A stretch of DNA of 38,469 bases, taken from Bacteroidota bacterium (lineage in GTDB: Bacteria; Bacteroidota; Bacteroidia; Chitinophagales; Chitinophagaceae). Each line of letters opens with the position of its first letter. The first letter of the stretch is position 1. A model generated the notes under the pieces. The model made no database searches, had not been told where the DNA came from, and worked only from the letters and a program-made list of their open reading frames with translations. Below are positions 1-34,658 of the stretch, in pieces. The stretch covers positions 4,573 through 43,041 of the forward strand of contig JABDEZ010000011.1 of assembly GCA_013286835.1 (NCBI GenBank), in the 5' to 3' direction. The translations under genes and the position numbers were made by a program.

Positions 1-1410
1 GTTTGCCTTGGTTGTACCATCTCCATCGGTAACACGCAGTATGTAGTGGCCAGCTGCAAGGTCGCTCAGCATGTACTCGCCAGTTGTACCTGTGGCTTCA
101 TATACTGCGCTTACGCTACGGCCTGCCATATCATATACAACCAACTTGTCTCCAGCCTTTAAGCCATTCACACTTACTTTGCTCGTAAACGGATTGGGAT
201 AAACACTGATACCATTGTTATTAGCTACATTGCCTACTCCTTCGTTATACGGCGTAAAGTCTATCTCCAGCGGGGTTGCCGTTGTTACTGCGTTGTAGCA
301 GGTACCGTTATATGGTGTAACAGGTACTATGCGGGCTGATATATAATCTATAGTTGGACGCGGGCTCTTTTTAAAGTTAATGTAGTTGACATTATGTGTA
401 GTGTCTATATAGGTGCTGGCATTTGCCCAATATATAGTGTAGTTACCGCCGCCATAGTTGCTGATGTTGGCTGTTACCGTTACTACCTGGTCGTCTATTG
501 CTGTCTTCGGGGCGCTCAGCTGGATGGTTGGCGTAACTCCATACTGGGTGGTGGCTACTACCGGCTGGCTGGTTACGTTGGTGGTATTGTAGCAACCGTT
601 AGCTGGTGTGTTCACTACTTCTGTTACCAGGTCGCCATTGTTGGGTGCATATGAATACGTGCTGGCTGTAGCACCGGCTACCGGTTGGCTGTTCACATAC
701 CATTGGTACGATCCCCCATATACATTACCATAACCCGTATAGTCAACTATTACGCCTGAGCAACCATTGTTGCTGCTGGCTGCTACTGAATCGTATGGCG
801 TGAAATTGCTGCCTACGACCGGGCTTACCTGGTTGCTCACTGCTACCGGTACCGTATAGCACGCTATAGCTGCATTGTTGGGCGTTGTTACTACTGCATA
901 TACCTGGTCGCCCGGGTTAGGTACAAAGCCATATTGACTTGCTGTAGATACAGGGTTTACCGCACTTGGGTATTTATACCATGCATATGTTGGGCTTTGC
1001 ACATTGGTTACTACTGTATAGGTAGCATTGGTGTACTGGCAGGCAGGGTTAGGACCTGTTATATTGGCCACCGGGGTTACCGCTGGTGAGGTGTTGATGC
1101 TTAGTGTGGCCGGGTTGCTGTAACCCGTACCGCAGGTACTGGTCATATAGGCACGGTACTGATAACCGTTCTGCGCTGCGGTGGCACCGCTTATGGTAAG
1201 AACAGACTGGTTAACGCCTGTGTACAAGCTGTTGCTGCTCAGGTTGACCCAGCTATTGCCATTGTTTACCTGCCACTGGTACGTGGTGGCCTGCCCACTG
1301 GCTATTGAGGTAAATGTTGTATTGGTGCCAGGGCATACCAGCTTGTTTACAGGATCTATATACGCACTACCATTGATCTGGGTATCCGGTATGTACGTAA
1401 CATAACTGTT
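1..1410. repeat. Long direct repeat, copy A (3' half of twin gene)
   Basis: Positions 1-1245 are identical by eye to 2679-3923 (constant offset 2678). From 1246 to about 1410 there are scattered single-base differences, and similarity is lost beyond about 1410. The repeat covers the C-terminal ~415 codons before the last few. It probably extends left of the window. Confidence 0.93.
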
Positions 1411-2325
1411 CTGAACGGGAGTTAGATAATACATAATATCGCCAAAGCCTTCGGTATAAGGTGCTATATAAACGGGAGGTGCTGTAGTAGCAATAGGAGG
1501 TGTTGAGAACAAACCATTATCAGCCCCTCCTAAGATAGTCACTTGCGATGAAGACAGCGGCATAGAAGAGCTAGCAGAATAATAATAGAGATACGTGTTG
1601 CCGCCTATAGCTGTGCTGACAGCAAACGTCTTATTGTTTGACGGATCGATAACAACAGGGGAAGGTAAATTTACAAACGACCAGTTTTGATATGACGCTG
1701 AAGAAAGCGGTTGATTAGCAATGACTTTGCCACTTAAACTAGCATCGTAGGAAGAAAGCTGCAAAAGCAGATTTGCTCCTCCGTTAAATTGATAGGTACC
1801 TAATGCTGTAACTATTAATTGTTGGTTAGGTTTGAAGTAAACTCCTGTTTGCTCAGTATCTGTTGTTGGGATAGAAAAATAATAGGTATAAGATCCTATA
1901 CTACTCATGGCTTGTCCATTAAACATGGTATATGGACCATCTAACGCTCCGTAGCCTGAAGCTGCTGTTGTATCAGGATTACCGTAGAACATGTAAATGG
2001 TACGTGTGCTGTTTGGTTTCAGGCTATCTATGCGAACGTATATCAACGTTGTAGCAGTATTAATGCCGGAGTCTATAAAATAACTGAACATTTTGAGGCC
2101 ATTGCAAGGTGTACCGAACCGAATGTCCTGGCCACTGTCCTGCATTTTATGGGCACTGATGAGTGCCTGTGTATTTACAGTTACCGCCATGGTGTAATTA
2201 AGAATGAGCTGGGGACTACTATTGGTTACGGCAAATGGCTTTTCGTACAGCCAGCCTGCAGGTTGTGCATAGGTTATGGCGCTGAGGCACACCATGATAA
2301 AGGAAAAAAGTAAGTTTTTTTTCAT
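1..2325 (-). CDS. T9SS-sorted surface protein, DUF2341-like plus Ig-like domains (twin copy A, partial at left edge)
   Basis: This gene is absent from the ORF track because its stop lies left of the window. I read it from the ATG at 2325: signal peptide MKKNLLFSFIMVCLSAITYA, then QPAGWLYEKPFAV, which opens a DUF2341-like domain (about residues 20-130, with motifs DIRFGTPCNG and YMFYGNPDTTA). A variable middle follows, then Ig-like segments around VCPGTNTTF and YQWQVNN, and a T9SS type A sorting domain (ISVYPNPF). By alignment with copy B only the last 6-7 codons plus the stop are missing, giving an inferred 781 aa. It should cross the inner membrane by Sec, pass T9SS and end attached to the cell surface or released. 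Its role is unknown; adhesion or glycan binding is a guess from the Ig-like folds. The 3' half is identical in DNA to copy B while the middle differs. Confidence 0.85.
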   Translation of the reverse strand, partial: MKKNLLFSFIMVCLSAITYAQPAGWLYEKPFAVTNSSPQLILNYTMAVTVNTQALISAHKMQDSGQDIRFGTPCNGLKMFSYFIDSGINTATTLIYVRIDSLKPNSTRTIYMFYGNPDTTAASGYGALDGPYTMFNGQAMSSIGSYTYYFSIPTTDTEQTGVYFKPNQQLIVTALGTYQFNGGANLLLQLSSYDASLSGKVIANQPLSSASYQNWSFVNLPSPVVIDPSNNKTFAVSTAIGGNTYLYYYSASSSMPLSSSQVTILGGADNGLFSTPPIATTAPPVYIAPYTEGFGDIMYYLTPVQNSYVTYIPDTQINGSAYIDPVNKLVCPGTNTTFTSIASGQATTYQWQVNNGNSWVNLSSNSLYTGVNQSVLTISGATAAQNGYQYRAYMTSTCGTGYSNPATLSINTSPAVTPVANITGPNPACQYTNATYTVVTNVQSPTYAWYKYPSAVNPVSTASQYGFVPNPGDQVYAVVTTPNNAAIACYTVPVAVSNQVSPVVGSNFTPYDSVAASSNNGCSGVIVDYTGYGNVYGGSYQWYVNSQPVAGATASTYSYAPNNGDLVTEVVNTPANGCYNTTNVTSQPVVATTQYGVTPTIQLSAPKTAIDDQVVTVTANISNYGGGNYTIYWANASTYIDTTHNVNYINFKKSPRPTIDYISARIVPVTPYNGTCYNAVTTATPLEIDFTPYNEGVGNVANNNGISVYPNPFTSKVSVNGLKAGDKLVVYDMAGRSVSAVYEATGTTGEYMLSDLAAGHYILRVTDGDGTTKAN

Positions 2326-2657
2326 ACCCGGGATTGTTTTCTGCTTATAAAAATGCCACAGCAGCCGCTATGCGGTTACTGTAAAACGAAATGTACAGAT
2401 TTTTTTTAAAACTATTAACTTTTTTTTGACAACAGTATGATTTTTGCTATTTGTACAATACTGTGTATGAGGAAAAATCTGTTTTATATTCAGCTACTTA
2501 TATATAAATGCTTTTCAGTGTCTTTTCTGTAGTGTTGCCGAGCCTGGAAATTAAGACCGGTCTGACATTTCATTAATAAAACAATCCCGCAGGGTGTGCG
2601 GGACTGTTGGTTAGTTATGTATAGTATGAAGTGGGGTAGCCCCGCTTCGATCGTTTC
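2326..2657. other. Intergenic spacer between the twin genes
   Basis: This 332-bp AT-rich spacer has no credible ORF. It contains the terminator of copy B at 2574-2607 and must hold any separate promoter of copy A. The best minus-strand -7 candidate I see is TACATTTC near 2390 (one mismatch to TAnnTTTG) with no clear -33 TTG. A GACCGGTC palindrome lies near 2556. Nothing else stands out. Confidence 0.5.
2574..2607 (-). terminator. Intrinsic terminator after twin copy B
   Basis: Read on the minus strand, ACAGTCCCGC pairs with GCGGGATTGT (10 bp with one G-U pair) around a 7-nt loop and is followed by TTTTATT. It lies 50 bp past the stop of the gene at 2658, so copies A and B are probably separate transcription units unless readthrough occurs. 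Confidence 0.85.
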
Positions 2658-5000
2658 TTAGAGTTTGCTTACCGGCAGGTTTGCCTTGGTTGTACCATCT
2701 CCATCGGTAACACGCAGTATGTAGTGGCCAGCTGCAAGGTCGCTCAGCATGTACTCGCCAGTTGTACCTGTGGCTTCATATACTGCGCTTACGCTACGGC
2801 CTGCCATATCATATACAACCAACTTGTCTCCAGCCTTTAAGCCATTCACACTTACTTTGCTCGTAAACGGATTGGGATAAACACTGATACCATTGTTATT
2901 AGCTACATTGCCTACTCCTTCGTTATACGGCGTAAAGTCTATCTCCAGCGGGGTTGCCGTTGTTACTGCGTTGTAGCAGGTACCGTTATATGGTGTAACA
3001 GGTACTATGCGGGCTGATATATAATCTATAGTTGGACGCGGGCTCTTTTTAAAGTTAATGTAGTTGACATTATGTGTAGTGTCTATATAGGTGCTGGCAT
3101 TTGCCCAATATATAGTGTAGTTACCGCCGCCATAGTTGCTGATGTTGGCTGTTACCGTTACTACCTGGTCGTCTATTGCTGTCTTCGGGGCGCTCAGCTG
3201 GATGGTTGGCGTAACTCCATACTGGGTGGTGGCTACTACCGGCTGGCTGGTTACGTTGGTGGTATTGTAGCAACCGTTAGCTGGTGTGTTCACTACTTCT
3301 GTTACCAGGTCGCCATTGTTGGGTGCATATGAATACGTGCTGGCTGTAGCACCGGCTACCGGTTGGCTGTTCACATACCATTGGTACGATCCCCCATATA
3401 CATTACCATAACCCGTATAGTCAACTATTACGCCTGAGCAACCATTGTTGCTGCTGGCTGCTACTGAATCGTATGGCGTGAAATTGCTGCCTACGACCGG
3501 GCTTACCTGGTTGCTCACTGCTACCGGTACCGTATAGCACGCTATAGCTGCATTGTTGGGCGTTGTTACTACTGCATATACCTGGTCGCCCGGGTTAGGT
3601 ACAAAGCCATATTGACTTGCTGTAGATACAGGGTTTACCGCACTTGGGTATTTATACCATGCATATGTTGGGCTTTGCACATTGGTTACTACTGTATAGG
3701 TAGCATTGGTGTACTGGCAGGCAGGGTTAGGACCTGTTATATTGGCCACCGGGGTTACCGCTGGTGAGGTGTTGATGCTTAGTGTGGCCGGGTTGCTGTA
3801 ACCCGTACCGCAGGTACTGGTCATATAGGCACGGTACTGATAACCGTTCTGCGCTGCGGTGGCACCGCTTATGGTAAGAACAGACTGGTTAACGCCTGTG
3901 TACAAGCTGTTGCTGCTCAGGTTTACCCAGCTGTTGCCGTTGTTTACCTGCCACTGGTACGTGGTGGCCTGACCGCTGGCTATTGAGGTAAATGTTGTAT
4001 TGGTGCCAGGGCATACCAGTTTGTTTACAGGATCTATATACGCACTGCCGTTGATCTGTGTATCCGGTATGTACGTAACATAACTGTTAGGAACGGGTTG
4101 CAGGTAGTATTTAATATCTGTATAGCCTGCTATAGAAGATGATGGATTTGCAAATGGAGCTGTTACTGCTGTAGGCGTAATAAAAAAAGAGTTATTTACA
4201 TATCCCAACACGGAAACTTGCGATGATGTTGGCGGAATAGAAGTAGTTCCTCCATAATAATCGTTGAAGTCATCATCTAACGCGATAGATACACCATATG
4301 TTGAATCCGGATTGAGGAGAATAGGCTTGGCCAGATCAACAAATGTCCAGGTGGTTGAACCAAAAGTCCCCATTGCTTTGTTCGCAACCACAGCTCCACT
4401 TAAAGTTATAGGGTCATACTGTGACAACTGCATTATAGTTTGAGTAAATATTCCGAATGGTGAAAAAGCACCTAATGCAGTAACTAACAATTTCTTATTT
4501 GGCTGAAAATAAACACCTGTTTGCGTTGTATCGGTATGTGCACCACAACAAGTATTGTTTATAAAGGTGGAGTATGAACTATAATCCTGACCATTAAACA
4601 TTGTATATGGCCCATCTAGCGCGCTATAATTAGATGCCGCAGTAGTATCAGGGTTACCATAGAACATATAGATAGTGCGTGTGCTGTTTGGTTTTAAACT
4701 ATCAATAGTTACATAAATCAAAGTTGTTGCAGTGTTAATGCCGGAGTCAATAAAATAATTGAACATCCTGGTACCATCACATGGCGTACCAAAACGAATA
4801 TCCTGGCCACTGTCCTGCATTTTATGGGCACTGATGAGCGCTTGTGTATTTACAGTTACCGCCATGGTGTAATTAAGAATGAGCTGAGGGCTGCTGTTGG
4901 TTACCGCAAATGGCTTTTCGTACAGCCAACCAGCCGGCTGGGCATGTGCTGCGCCCAAGGAAAAAACAATAACCAATAGCGATAGTAATACTTTTTTCAT
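2658..5000 (-). CDS. T9SS-sorted surface protein, DUF2341-like plus Ig-like domains (twin copy B)
   Basis: A 780-aa protein with Sec signal MKKVLLSLLVIVFSLGAAHA. Residues about 21-130 match the DUF2341 pattern (GWLYEKPFAV, DIRFGTPCDG, YMFYGNPDTT). Residues about 130-310 are a copy-specific beta-rich segment (TGVYFQPNKKLLVTALG). Residues about 325-680 carry Ig/PKD-like repeats with regularly placed Cys (VCPGTNTTF, CQYTNATYTV, GCSGVIVDY). The last ~75 residues form a T9SS type A sorting domain beginning ISVYPNPF with the usual GxYxL and GHYILRV strands. The protein is expected at the cell surface. Its ligand is unknown. It is transcribed away from the proposed origin and ends in its own terminator. 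The last ~415 codons before the final few are nucleotide-identical to copy A. Confidence 0.92.
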   Translation of the reverse strand: MKKVLLSLLVIVFSLGAAHAQPAGWLYEKPFAVTNSSPQLILNYTMAVTVNTQALISAHKMQDSGQDIRFGTPCDGTRMFNYFIDSGINTATTLIYVTIDSLKPNSTRTIYMFYGNPDTTAASNYSALDGPYTMFNGQDYSSYSTFINNTCCGAHTDTTQTGVYFQPNKKLLVTALGAFSPFGIFTQTIMQLSQYDPITLSGAVVANKAMGTFGSTTWTFVDLAKPILLNPDSTYGVSIALDDDFNDYYGGTTSIPPTSSQVSVLGYVNNSFFITPTAVTAPFANPSSSIAGYTDIKYYLQPVPNSYVTYIPDTQINGSAYIDPVNKLVCPGTNTTFTSIASGQATTYQWQVNNGNSWVNLSSNSLYTGVNQSVLTISGATAAQNGYQYRAYMTSTCGTGYSNPATLSINTSPAVTPVANITGPNPACQYTNATYTVVTNVQSPTYAWYKYPSAVNPVSTASQYGFVPNPGDQVYAVVTTPNNAAIACYTVPVAVSNQVSPVVGSNFTPYDSVAASSNNGCSGVIVDYTGYGNVYGGSYQWYVNSQPVAGATASTYSYAPNNGDLVTEVVNTPANGCYNTTNVTSQPVVATTQYGVTPTIQLSAPKTAIDDQVVTVTANISNYGGGNYTIYWANASTYIDTTHNVNYINFKKSPRPTIDYISARIVPVTPYNGTCYNAVTTATPLEIDFTPYNEGVGNVANNNGISVYPNPFTSKVSVNGLKAGDKLVVYDMAGRSVSAVYEATGTTGEYMLSDLAAGHYILRVTDGDGTTKANLPVSKL
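2679..4088. repeat. Long direct repeat, copy B
   Basis: This is the partner of 1-1410. The first 1245 bp (2679-3923) are identical to 1-1245; the first mismatch is at 3924 (T here, G at 1246). Similarity fades after about 4088 and returns over the N-terminal coding part (about 4700-4960 against 2020-2280). Confidence 0.93.
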
Positions 5001-9234: not shown

Positions 9235-11163
9235 TTATTTAGACAAAACTGTAAATGGTTTTGACATTGTAACACCATCAGCAATTACGAACATGTAATA
9301 CTGTCCGGCTGGCAGATTAGAAGTAGAGAAAGCGATATCTTCATTCTGAAGATTGCTCCTGTTATCCCACATCATGCCGCGACCTACAGCGTTCATAATA
9401 TTGAAGTAAACTTTAGAAGCACGTGTTGGCAGATCCAATTTAACATGAATATCTGTACCTACAGCAGGATTAGGATAAACTGAGAAATGAGAAGGAACGA
9501 CAGCAACATTCTGAACTGAATTCTGATGATTTTTTGAAGTATAGAACGCCATAGCAGGAGTTAATGCATCAAAATCCCTAATGCTAACTTGTGTAGGATC
9601 AGTAGTAGAAGTAACGAAAGGAATCATATCGAGACCCTGAGATACTGCACCTGTAAAGGCATCAGATGTGCTCTGGAATTCACCTCCAAAGAAATGCAAT
9701 GTATCAGTTAATTCAGATGCAACCAAGCGTCCCCAATAGTTAGTACGATCATCAGATACCAAAGAGAAACCAGACGGCATGTCAACAGCAAAGAAATAAG
9801 TGCTATTAGGCTCTGTATATGCTGTGGTACCTATATCACCAGCAGGATCGTTAATAGGTACAGTGAAAAACTTATAATTAGAATCGTTTGCAGTGAAAGT
9901 TTTAGAAGCTGTACCTATTTTGGTAAGTTCTGCACCCTGTATAATACCATCTTGTGCCTGACTATTTGAACCATCTACCCATTTAAACATAGAAATCAAC
10001 AGTGCACCATCCAACGTAAGATTATGTCTGCTGAAGTTTGTTGTATCATTATCTAATATAGCCAACTGAACCTGGGCAGCGCGGTAAGGACCATCTTTAA
10101 GGAAGAATAAAGGACCGTATATGTAATTAGTTGTACTTCCACCACCAGTTTCACCACCTATCATTGGTGCGCTTGCTACTGGATCCCAGCGACCCATACA
10201 GAACACAGAGTCAGTGATATATGAATATGTTTTTAGTGTATCATCGTTTGGATCAAGATCTGTAGCACCAAAAGATACATAGCTATTCATATCGTAACGA
10301 CCTTTTTGTGTTGCAACCGGATGGTAGATGCTATCATTAAACCTATTCTTCAATGAATCGCTGACAAGTATTGAACCAACATTCAATGTATCGGCACGCA
10401 GTTGGCTTTTAGCCCCACCTGTAGGAGTAAAATAAAGATCGTTATGGATAACAACGTTAGATTCTGCATTAGTACCTATATTAGCTACAGTACCAATATT
10501 GAACATATTATACTGAGATACCAAACCATTTGCACCGGTTACATGCGCCAAAGGTATTGCACCATATGCTGATACAGGAGTACTACCTGAAAGCATTGCA
10601 AGGTCATCAGCTAAACCAAAACCCCATGGAGATATTGAGATAGTATCAACACCACCTGCATATAAATTATTATTCAATGCAAGACCATCTGTGTTAGAGA
10701 TCATAATCACGGGAATATTGATCAATGTAGAATAGTTATTAGATGTGTTAGCAGCCATGTTTATTGGATCTGCACCTGGTACATTGTTTACTATAATAAC
10801 GCCCTGAGCATGTGCCAACCAGCAATAGTATGCTTTATCGCTAAAGAAATACTGACCTCTGAAGATAAGCGCCCACTTACCTGAAATCTTCGCGGAGTCT
10901 GCAGGGCTAAGTTTACCGCTCACCAAAGAATCAGTGATATTTGCTACCGGCACGTGATAATGACTGCCCAAAGCACCACCCCAAAAAGCTGTAACTACAG
11001 GGTTTGAAGAATAAGTAAACGTTTTAGGTCCACTTTGACTTGCAGGAGAGTTTACAATAAAGTGCCCTCCAAAATTTTGTTGCGCAAACTGCGCATTTGC
11101 ATTAAAAGATAAACCGGCTACCAGCGAAGTAAGCAACAGGTTGAGTAAAAAAAATTTCTTCAT
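9235..11163 (-). CDS. PA-domain secreted protein with T9SS sorting domain
   Basis: A 642-aa protein with signal peptide MKKFFLLNLLLTSLVAGLSFNANA. Residues about 60-185 look like a protease-associated (PA) domain (GKWALIFRGQYFFSDKAYYCWLAHAQGVIIVNN, INIPVIMISNTDGLAL), normally a binding or regulatory module on secreted peptidases; no peptidase motif is visible here. The long middle (about 200-550) is beta-rich and not recognised. The last ~80 residues form a T9SS type A sorting domain (FSVYPNPAVGTDIHV ... LPAGQYYMFVIADG), so it is probably exported to the cell surface. It has its own promoter (-7 box at 11216-11223) and terminator (9183-9214), so it is monocistronic. It is similar in architecture to secreted Bacteroidota proteins of unknown role. 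Confidence 0.85.
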   Translation of the reverse strand: MKKFFLLNLLLTSLVAGLSFNANAQFAQQNFGGHFIVNSPASQSGPKTFTYSSNPVVTAFWGGALGSHYHVPVANITDSLVSGKLSPADSAKISGKWALIFRGQYFFSDKAYYCWLAHAQGVIIVNNVPGADPINMAANTSNNYSTLINIPVIMISNTDGLALNNNLYAGGVDTISISPWGFGLADDLAMLSGSTPVSAYGAIPLAHVTGANGLVSQYNMFNIGTVANIGTNAESNVVIHNDLYFTPTGGAKSQLRADTLNVGSILVSDSLKNRFNDSIYHPVATQKGRYDMNSYVSFGATDLDPNDDTLKTYSYITDSVFCMGRWDPVASAPMIGGETGGGSTTNYIYGPLFFLKDGPYRAAQVQLAILDNDTTNFSRHNLTLDGALLISMFKWVDGSNSQAQDGIIQGAELTKIGTASKTFTANDSNYKFFTVPINDPAGDIGTTAYTEPNSTYFFAVDMPSGFSLVSDDRTNYWGRLVASELTDTLHFFGGEFQSTSDAFTGAVSQGLDMIPFVTSTTDPTQVSIRDFDALTPAMAFYTSKNHQNSVQNVAVVPSHFSVYPNPAVGTDIHVKLDLPTRASKVYFNIMNAVGRGMMWDNRSNLQNEDIAFSTSNLPAGQYYMFVIADGVTMSKPFTVLSK

Positions 11164-32363: not shown

Positions 32364-34658
32364 TTAGCTTTTTTTCAGCTCAAGGTGTACCCTGCGGTTT
32401 TTAGCCCGGCCAATTTTTGTTTTGTTGCTGGCGGCTGGGTGCTCTTCGCCATGTCCTGCAGCATGAAGCCTGTCGGCAGATATACCTTCTTTTACGAAGT
32501 AAGCTTTAACTGCTTCAGCACGCTCTTTTGATAATTTCATATTCATTTCAGGTTTACCAACGTTGTCGGTATAGCCGTCAATATTCATGTCGTTATCAGG
32601 GTATTCTTTCAGTATTTTCACAATATCGTTGAGCAGTGGGTAAGATGTAGTTTTTATTACACCTCTGCCGGTTTCAAATTCAATAGCGGTTGCTGCAAAG
32701 TCAAGTTTCTTCTTCACTTCCTGGGCTACTTCTTTTTTCTTAACAGGGCAACCATCATTTGATATTGGTCCGGGATCGTTAGGGCATTTATCCAGATTGT
32801 CTGGTATATTATCGCCATCGGTATCGGGGCAACCTTTAAATTTGGCAGGCCCGGCTTGCAAGGGGCAAGCATCTTCATTGTCAGGTATGCCATCACCATC
32901 AGTATCGGGGCAACCGTGAAACTGCGGAAGGCCAAATTTGTAAGGGCAGGCATCTTCACTGTCAGGCACACCATCACCATCACTATCGGGACAGCCATGC
33001 AGTTCTGCAAGCCCAGCTTGTGTAGGGCATTTGTCATCTATATCAGGTATGCCATCGCCATCCTTGTCGGGGCAGCCTTGTAGCGCAACTGCTCCAGAAT
33101 CATCAGGACAACGGTCATCACCATCGGCCACGCTATCCCTATCCCTGTCAGGGCAGCCCTTAGCAGTCAGCACACCTGGTATTAGCGGGCATTTGTCCAT
33201 ACGGTCAGATATATGGTCATGATCCCTGTCGCGTATTTTTTTCCTATTGATAGGTACAAATCCACCAGCATGTATGTTAAAGCCATATTGATTGTTATTG
33301 AATAATGCCAGCATATCATCGCTGCCTACAAAGAAGCCTGACACGCGTACACCAAAACCCAATTTGAAATGATCATCAAGGGAGCTATAGGTAACCGGTA
33401 CTGATACACCAATAAGTCGGGTATCGTAACGAGGAGTAAATGTGATCTGGTTATAATAGTAGTTACCAAAATCATTTTTGTTAGCCAGGTTAGCCAGATA
33501 GTTAACGCTTATGTAGAACTTGCTGTAGATGTGGTAGTCAACACCTGTCATTAAGGCGGTAGGTAGGTGAACTGTTGTAGATTTATGACTGCCGGTATCT
33601 ACCGATAAGTTATGAGACAGGGCATAATCACGGAAATCATTGTAGTTTTTAAATTGGGTAATAAGGTCGTTACCTGATAAGTAGCCATTGCCGGTGAAGT
33701 TTGCAGTAAAATTGCTGCCTTTGTAGGTGATGCCGCCAATATCAGTTACAGCAACTGATAATTTTAATTTATAACTGGCTTTATTCGGGTCTTTGTGCAT
33801 CGCCCCATCCATTTCGTAATAGTTGTTTTCAGAAGCTGGGTTCCACTCATATACCAAACCCAGATCGCCACCAACACCCGCTCCGCCGTTGGTGCCGCCA
33901 AAGAAACGGCTCATGATATCAGAACCAGCTATACCATTACTCAGATCTACCTGGGAATTAATAACGTTGCTGCCATATTCAAGATCGGTATTGTTGATCT
34001 GTAAAGAATCTGCTTTTGAATAATAGTGTGCATCCAGGTTTTTGCCTTTTATACCGGCATAACCTATGCCGCCCAGGTAGCGCGCAGTAAGCCCACCTTT
34101 TATTTCATGGTGCTCGTTTCTGAAAATGACGGCACTGTAACTAAGGCCAATTTCGCTCCATACCTGTGCTGTCCAGTTATAATTTTTTGAAGTAAAACCA
34201 TAGTCTGAGCTTGAACTGAATGTAGGATCGGTAATAATGCGATATACACTTTGGTCGAAGTTTGAAAATTGGTTGAACGCCCTTACACGGGTGGTTAGCG
34301 CAAGGGTATTTTTATCATTTATAGCATACATGATCCCAGGCCCACGCACCTCGCCATAAGGCGCCAGCATGTTAAACGGATTCTGTGAACCATAGTTAAA
34401 TATCTGATCGGTGGTAAGAGACTTATTATAGTTTGCCAATATATTGCTGGAACGTAACGTACCAATATTGGTGTTCACACCAGCATTGACAGAAAGGATA
34501 TCTACTGATATTTTTAAATGGTTATCAGCGCCATTTGCCGGGTTTAGGTATAGGCTATTGGTACCGCTCCAGAGACTGGTGGCTTCGCTAAAATACATCT
34601 GTGCCCGAGCTTGAGCAGCTATTATAATTATTATAACTGTGAGTGTAAATTTCTTCAT
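32364..34658 (-). CDS. OmpA-family outer-membrane protein with thrombospondin type 3 repeats
   Basis: A 764-aa protein: signal peptide MKKFTLTVIIIIIAAQARA, an N-terminal beta-barrel-like region of about 450 residues (starts YFSEATSLWSGTNSLYLNPAN, resembling DUF5723/PorP-like barrels), six 27-residue TSP3 repeats at residues 477-638 (consensus DxDGDGIPDxxDxCPxxxGxxxxxGCP), and a C-terminal OmpA peptidoglycan-binding domain from about 645 (FETGRGVIKTTSYPLLNDIVKIL, NIDGYTDNVGKPEMNMKLSKERAEAVKAYFV, KNRRVHLELKKS). The TSP3 repeats bind Ca2+ and act as a stiff linker between barrel and cell wall. It ends in a strong terminator and is monocistronic. Confidence 0.92.
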   Translation of the reverse strand: MKKFTLTVIIIIIAAQARAQMYFSEATSLWSGTNSLYLNPANGADNHLKISVDILSVNAGVNTNIGTLRSSNILANYNKSLTTDQIFNYGSQNPFNMLAPYGEVRGPGIMYAINDKNTLALTTRVRAFNQFSNFDQSVYRIITDPTFSSSSDYGFTSKNYNWTAQVWSEIGLSYSAVIFRNEHHEIKGGLTARYLGGIGYAGIKGKNLDAHYYSKADSLQINNTDLEYGSNVINSQVDLSNGIAGSDIMSRFFGGTNGGAGVGGDLGLVYEWNPASENNYYEMDGAMHKDPNKASYKLKLSVAVTDIGGITYKGSNFTANFTGNGYLSGNDLITQFKNYNDFRDYALSHNLSVDTGSHKSTTVHLPTALMTGVDYHIYSKFYISVNYLANLANKNDFGNYYYNQITFTPRYDTRLIGVSVPVTYSSLDDHFKLGFGVRVSGFFVGSDDMLALFNNNQYGFNIHAGGFVPINRKKIRDRDHDHISDRMDKCPLIPGVLTAKGCPDRDRDSVADGDDRCPDDSGAVALQGCPDKDGDGIPDIDDKCPTQAGLAELHGCPDSDGDGVPDSEDACPYKFGLPQFHGCPDTDGDGIPDNEDACPLQAGPAKFKGCPDTDGDNIPDNLDKCPNDPGPISNDGCPVKKKEVAQEVKKKLDFAATAIEFETGRGVIKTTSYPLLNDIVKILKEYPDNDMNIDGYTDNVGKPEMNMKLSKERAEAVKAYFVKEGISADRLHAAGHGEEHPAASNKTKIGRAKNRRVHLELKKS
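32745..33230. repeat. Six tandem 81-bp units encoding TSP3 calcium-binding repeats
   Basis: Six units of 81 bp (27 codons) in the OmpA-family gene. The four repeats encoded in the middle and 3' part share DNA such as CCATCACCATC and TATCGGGGCA, so the copies are partly homogenised; the first two (RDRDHDH and DRDSVADGD) are more diverged. Confidence 0.88.

Follow-up and report, generated by a model that had tools for sequence, protein, structure and literature searches.

Probable segmental gene conversion between two old twin genes for T9SS-exported surface proteins in a member of the Chitinophagaceae

Introduction

Two adjoining genes in a draft, 69%-complete genome of an uncultured member of the Chitinophagaceae encode putative surface proteins that share identical 3' halves and differ strongly in their middles, which raises the question of how one part of a gene pair is kept the same while another diverges. 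An earlier note on this DNA proposed ongoing gene conversion of the Ig-like and sorting part, selection diversifying the middle domain, or a cassette-like system of surface variation exported by the type IX secretion system (T9SS). We analyzed the whole stretch of 38,469 nucleotides (the window; C11:4573-43041) and compared it with the genome of Flavipsychrobacter sp. MAG_CO247, a species of the same genus, so that two genomes of the genus were covered in all. What emerges looks like a real but ordinary phenomenon, gene conversion between old twin genes, and not a surface-variation system.

Results

Architecture of the gene pair

The products of both genes (Table 1) have the same order of parts, with a signal-like start followed by DUF2341, a DUF4082-like middle, a weak Ig-like region and a T9SS sorting tail. 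The matches to DUF2341 (PF10102) score 39.7 and 37.6 bits against a gathering score of 23.4, and the type A sorting domain (Por_Secre_tail) lies above the cut-off in both genes with two models (TIGR04183, 39 bits against 23; PF18962, 37 bits against 27). Together with SprA, which was found in the sister species and not in the 69%-complete genome studied here, these tails support the export by T9SS that had been proposed. The middles reach 24.4 and 20.9 bits against the 28.4 required for DUF4082 (PF13313), which they appear to resemble without being filed as members, and the Ig_3 matches (PF13927) stay at 17 and 15.9 bits against 30. The papers found that name DUF2341 or DUF4082 mention them only in passing.

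Table 1. Positions in the window of the twin genes and their parts.
Feature	Position	Strand	Remark
Gene 1, surface protein (DUF2341 / DUF4082-like / Ig-like / T9SS tail)	1..2325	-	Runs out of the window
Gene 2, tandem paralogue of gene 1, 780 aa, same architecture	2658..5000	-	
Identical block, gene 1 copy (Ig-like region and sorting tail)	1..1245	-	1245/1245 bases
Identical block, gene 2 copy	2679..3923	-	1245/1245 bases
Near-identical extension of the block to the middle-domain border, gene 1	1246..1410	-	Only silent differences
Near-identical extension of the block, gene 2	3924..4088	-	Only silent differences
Diverged middle, gene 1, residues about 140-306, DUF4082-like	1408..1908	-	PF13313 E 3e-5, below gathering score
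Diverged middle, gene 2, residues about 140-306, DUF4082-like	4083..4583	-	PF13313 E 4e-4, below gathering score
DUF2341 match, gene 1	1957..2133	-	PF10102 E 3e-9, above cut-off
DUF2341 match, gene 2	4617..4808	-	PF10102 E 7e-10, above cut-off
T9SS type A sorting tail, gene 1	10..204	-	TIGR04183 / PF18962 above cut-off
T9SS type A sorting tail, gene 2	2688..2882	-	TIGR04183 / PF18962 above cut-off
Terminator-like hairpin, gene 2	2580..2608	-	
Signal-peptide-like start, gene 1, not homogenised	2266..2325	-	Read from sequence; 53% DNA identity to gene 2
Signal-peptide-like start, gene 2	4941..5000	-	Orthologous to sister species, 92% DNA identity

With 18 sequences, structure prediction of the middle yielded a beta-rich model in two parts (pLDDT 76), a prediction from three sequences having been useless (mean pLDDT 32.5). 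The best solved match of the 18-sequence model is the PHR domain 3no8 (E 1e-3, TM 0.53 by target length, rmsd 9.6), a predicted likeness that we take only as a lead; a sequence search of solved structures returned nothing convincing.

Sorting-tail matches number about 100 in this genome and about 150 in that of the sister species, a large exported-protein repertoire in both, and another T9SS-tail protein of 642 aa lies at 9235-11163 of the window, with a partial M36 metallopeptidase match at residues 88-172 and a dN/dS of 0.10 between species. A gene for an OmpA-type outer-membrane protein (32364-34658) contains four repeats spaced by 81 bp (32780-33079) that read D-x-D-x-D-G, a calcium-binding-like pattern. 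Beyond typA (L004:1-1987; L038:3-4364) there is a gene for an NHL/Ig-like repeat protein with internal repeats of about 159 bp; here it forms a reading frame of 626 aa that ends in the first 145 bases of the contig. This end has the opposite orientation to that in the sister species, where the protein has at least 1454 aa, and a misassembly at the contig start is likely.

Identity and divergence along the pair

All 1245 bases of the shared block match between the copies, synonymous sites included, as the earlier note had stated, and the edges are sharp, although the exactness of the match could be slightly overstated because the repeat touches a scaffold gap in a draft assembly and an assembler can collapse near-identical repeats. 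The block covers about 415 codons with no silent change, for which the chance is about 1e-30 even at the lowest silent rate found in adjoining sequence (6 of 48 codons, set at 0.15). Over the next 165 bp about nine differences appear, none of which changes an amino acid. The N-terminal coding parts align as well as had been described (dN of 0 for residues 21-72), and the middles are indeed strongly different, with a dN of 0.53 for residues 140-306 and saturated silent sites. Each gene has its own terminator-like hairpin, again in line with the earlier description, that of gene 1 being a near-identical twin of the gene 2 hairpin and lying left of the window at C11:4276-4304. The twins themselves thus stand, and only their limits, previously set at 1-4088, need revision, since the 3' terminator belongs to the unit and gene 2 reaches position 5000, for a feature of about 5 kb.

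The scaffold gap and the reality of two genes

Position 1 of the window is the right edge of a scaffold gap of 100 N (C11:4473-4572), and the 95 bases to the left of this gap equal positions 1-95. Gene 1 in fact ends on the contig on that side (TTKANLPVSKL and the stop, at C11:4357), which continues with the terminator-like hairpin and then typA; with a contig overlap of 95 bp, gene 1 would encode 781 aa. The 95-base match most plausibly reflects an overlap with the end of the neighboring contig, and a third copy to the left of the window, where the earlier note had advised looking for further copies, was rejected on these grounds; none was found in this 69%-complete genome. That the tail of gene 1 is duplicated internally across the gap is also unlikely, as a contig of the sister species reads 138 bp into that end without one.

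A gap with overlapping contig ends has the look of an unresolved repeat; the other N runs in 420 kb of the assembly separate ends that do not overlap. It could accordingly be argued that a single gene only seems to be twins, either through one repeat edge used twice or through the concatenation of alleles from two strains, and the start of the right contig exactly one base past the last difference between the copies is in keeping with this. We regard such an artefact as quite unlikely, given that one contig holds both distinct middles, both signal-like starts and both 5' flanks, that the terminators are copy-specific, and that a second, independently assembled species shows breaks within this repeat on either side, which would be expected if there, too, the repeat lay in two contexts.

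Comparison with the sister species

In both species the pair sits between typA, to its left, and apaG, to its right. In MAG_CO247, typA lies at the end of one contig, apaG and gene 2 on another, and both contigs stop inside the repeat. Gene 1, with its middle, was not found in the MAG_CO247 assembly, as expected if it resides on short contigs between two repeats. The gene 2 middle has an orthologue there with 91% DNA identity (dS 0.30, dN 0.04, dN/dS 0.13), and is therefore under purifying selection; neighboring genes differ by a dS of 0.25-0.72 between the two species. As the dS of the gene 2 middle falls within this genus range and the paralogous middles are saturated, the middles separated before the species split, which places the duplication before it as well.

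The shared block behaves in the opposite manner. The copies studied here, which are 100% identical to each other, share 89% identity with the sister species over the 138 bp compared. Copies that are 0% different within this genome, yet 11% different from the sister species, point to concerted evolution by segmental gene conversion, so that this part of the earlier proposal is well supported, and they date the homogenisation here to after the species split. In tracts, then, the paralogues are closer to each other within the genome than to their orthologues, the pattern by which concerted evolution is recognized.

At repeats, contig ends in the MAG_CO247 assembly overlap by 141 bases, a rule verified on two other contigs, C38 and C39, which have exactly 141 bases in common at their broken ends. 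This rule predicts a repeat in the sister species at about 2676-4079 in window coordinates, so that its 3' border would almost coincide with the one here and its other border would fall at the edge of the middle domain, and these contig ends suggest that the sister copies have been homogenised too. C38 and C39 (L133 and L134) start inside a T9SS sorting-tail gene and diverge after bases 1-141, and constitute a second T9SS cargo gene pair with a locally identical stretch.

Trees and site patterns

The middle domains group as ((gene 2, sister gene 2), gene 1), and in a tree of the family the two middles are mutually nearest among the sampled homologues. The N-terminal tree joins genes 1 and 2 to the exclusion of sister gene 2, with modest support (0.74). 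Site patterns are orthologous at residues 1-20 (24:1) and 113-307 (208:16) and turn within-genome at residues 308-354 (12:4), the switch being located at the domain border that also bounds the identity. At 17 sites in residues 73-112, sister gene 2 resembles gene 1, and this DUF2341 patch shows a further exchange.

Cassette exchange and recent diversification

Identical flanks around differing middles are the layout that cassette systems need, in which middles shuffled among copies or strains would change the exposed domain, and surface export by T9SS is likely. Such systems are marked by several donor copies and by segments shuffled among close relatives; here there are only two full copies, the rest of the 69%-complete genome holds no silent cassettes, and neither a recombinase gene nor long inverted repeats lie beside the pair. 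Gene order is stable, and the same gene 2 middle adjoins apaG in both species. We thus consider the cassette-like variation of the earlier note very unlikely. A recent duplication of the whole gene followed by fast diversifying selection on the middle, which would also produce identical ends and a changed middle, is highly improbable and largely refuted, as the gene 2 middle predates the species split, the silent sites of the middles are saturated, and dN/dS comes to 0.13 for the species comparison and 0.24 for the paralogues.

Discussion

The likely explanation of this locus is a long-standing tandem pair of genes for surface proteins exported by T9SS, with segmental gene conversion driving the concerted evolution of their shared parts. 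The duplication that created the pair preceded the split of the two sampled species. Since then, homologous recombination between copies about 2.7 kb apart, presumably by a RecA-type enzyme, would have replaced the sequence of the 3' half, with its Ig-like region, sorting tail and terminator, and, in patches, that of the DUF2341 region, leaving the signal-like starts and the DUF4082-like middles separate. That conversion halts at the middle is probably due to an identity too low for strand exchange there, and to selection against converted middles, the two having different, conserved roles. The sequence comparisons mark the middles as old, stable and paralogue-specific domains.

Both products may be cell-surface adhesins with interchangeable anchors, whose middles would bind different ligands; the most likely function is that of an adhesin pair with two different binding domains on a common stalk and anchor. 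An extension of this idea, which we find unlikely, is a maintained two-specificity set in which conversion itself is favored, as it would keep both anchors and stalks matched to one partner, while a sequence barrier would protect the two binding domains and the population may occasionally exchange middles.

The locus is a clear example of concerted evolution confined by domain borders in T9SS cargo, and its duplication can be dated against a species split. Homogenised repeats can be mapped from the contig ends of short-read genomes, as the C38/C39 pair illustrates; since pairs of this sort break assemblies, they are probably under-counted.

Proteins with DUF2341, a DUF4082-like domain and a T9SS tail occur in Chitinophagaceae and relatives and share the architecture of the N-terminal and middle parts at about 26-36% identity, as one or two matches per genome spread across the order; a tandem homogenised pair was found in none of the genomes sampled outside this genus. 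The genome of Flavobacterium psychrophilum (PMC5808330) was dropped as a parallel for gene conversion, its mention being a reference title. The RgpA, Kgp and HagA proteins of Porphyromonas gingivalis are likewise T9SS cargo, in which differing N-terminal domains are followed by repeated adhesin regions at the C-terminal side, and their repeats confound short-read assembly, with gene conversion proposed as a source of variation (PMC5266723). They belong to other domain families, however, and are not a tandem pair, and the exchange between strains reported for them is not seen here. Segmental gene conversion is also known between the release factors RF1 and RF2 in Bacteroidia and Chloroflexi (PMC4530459). 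These are not surface proteins, whereas the genes described here form a tandem pair with a more recent, identical shared tract; in both systems, the paralogues swap only the domain of common role and the specificity domain keeps its own lineage.
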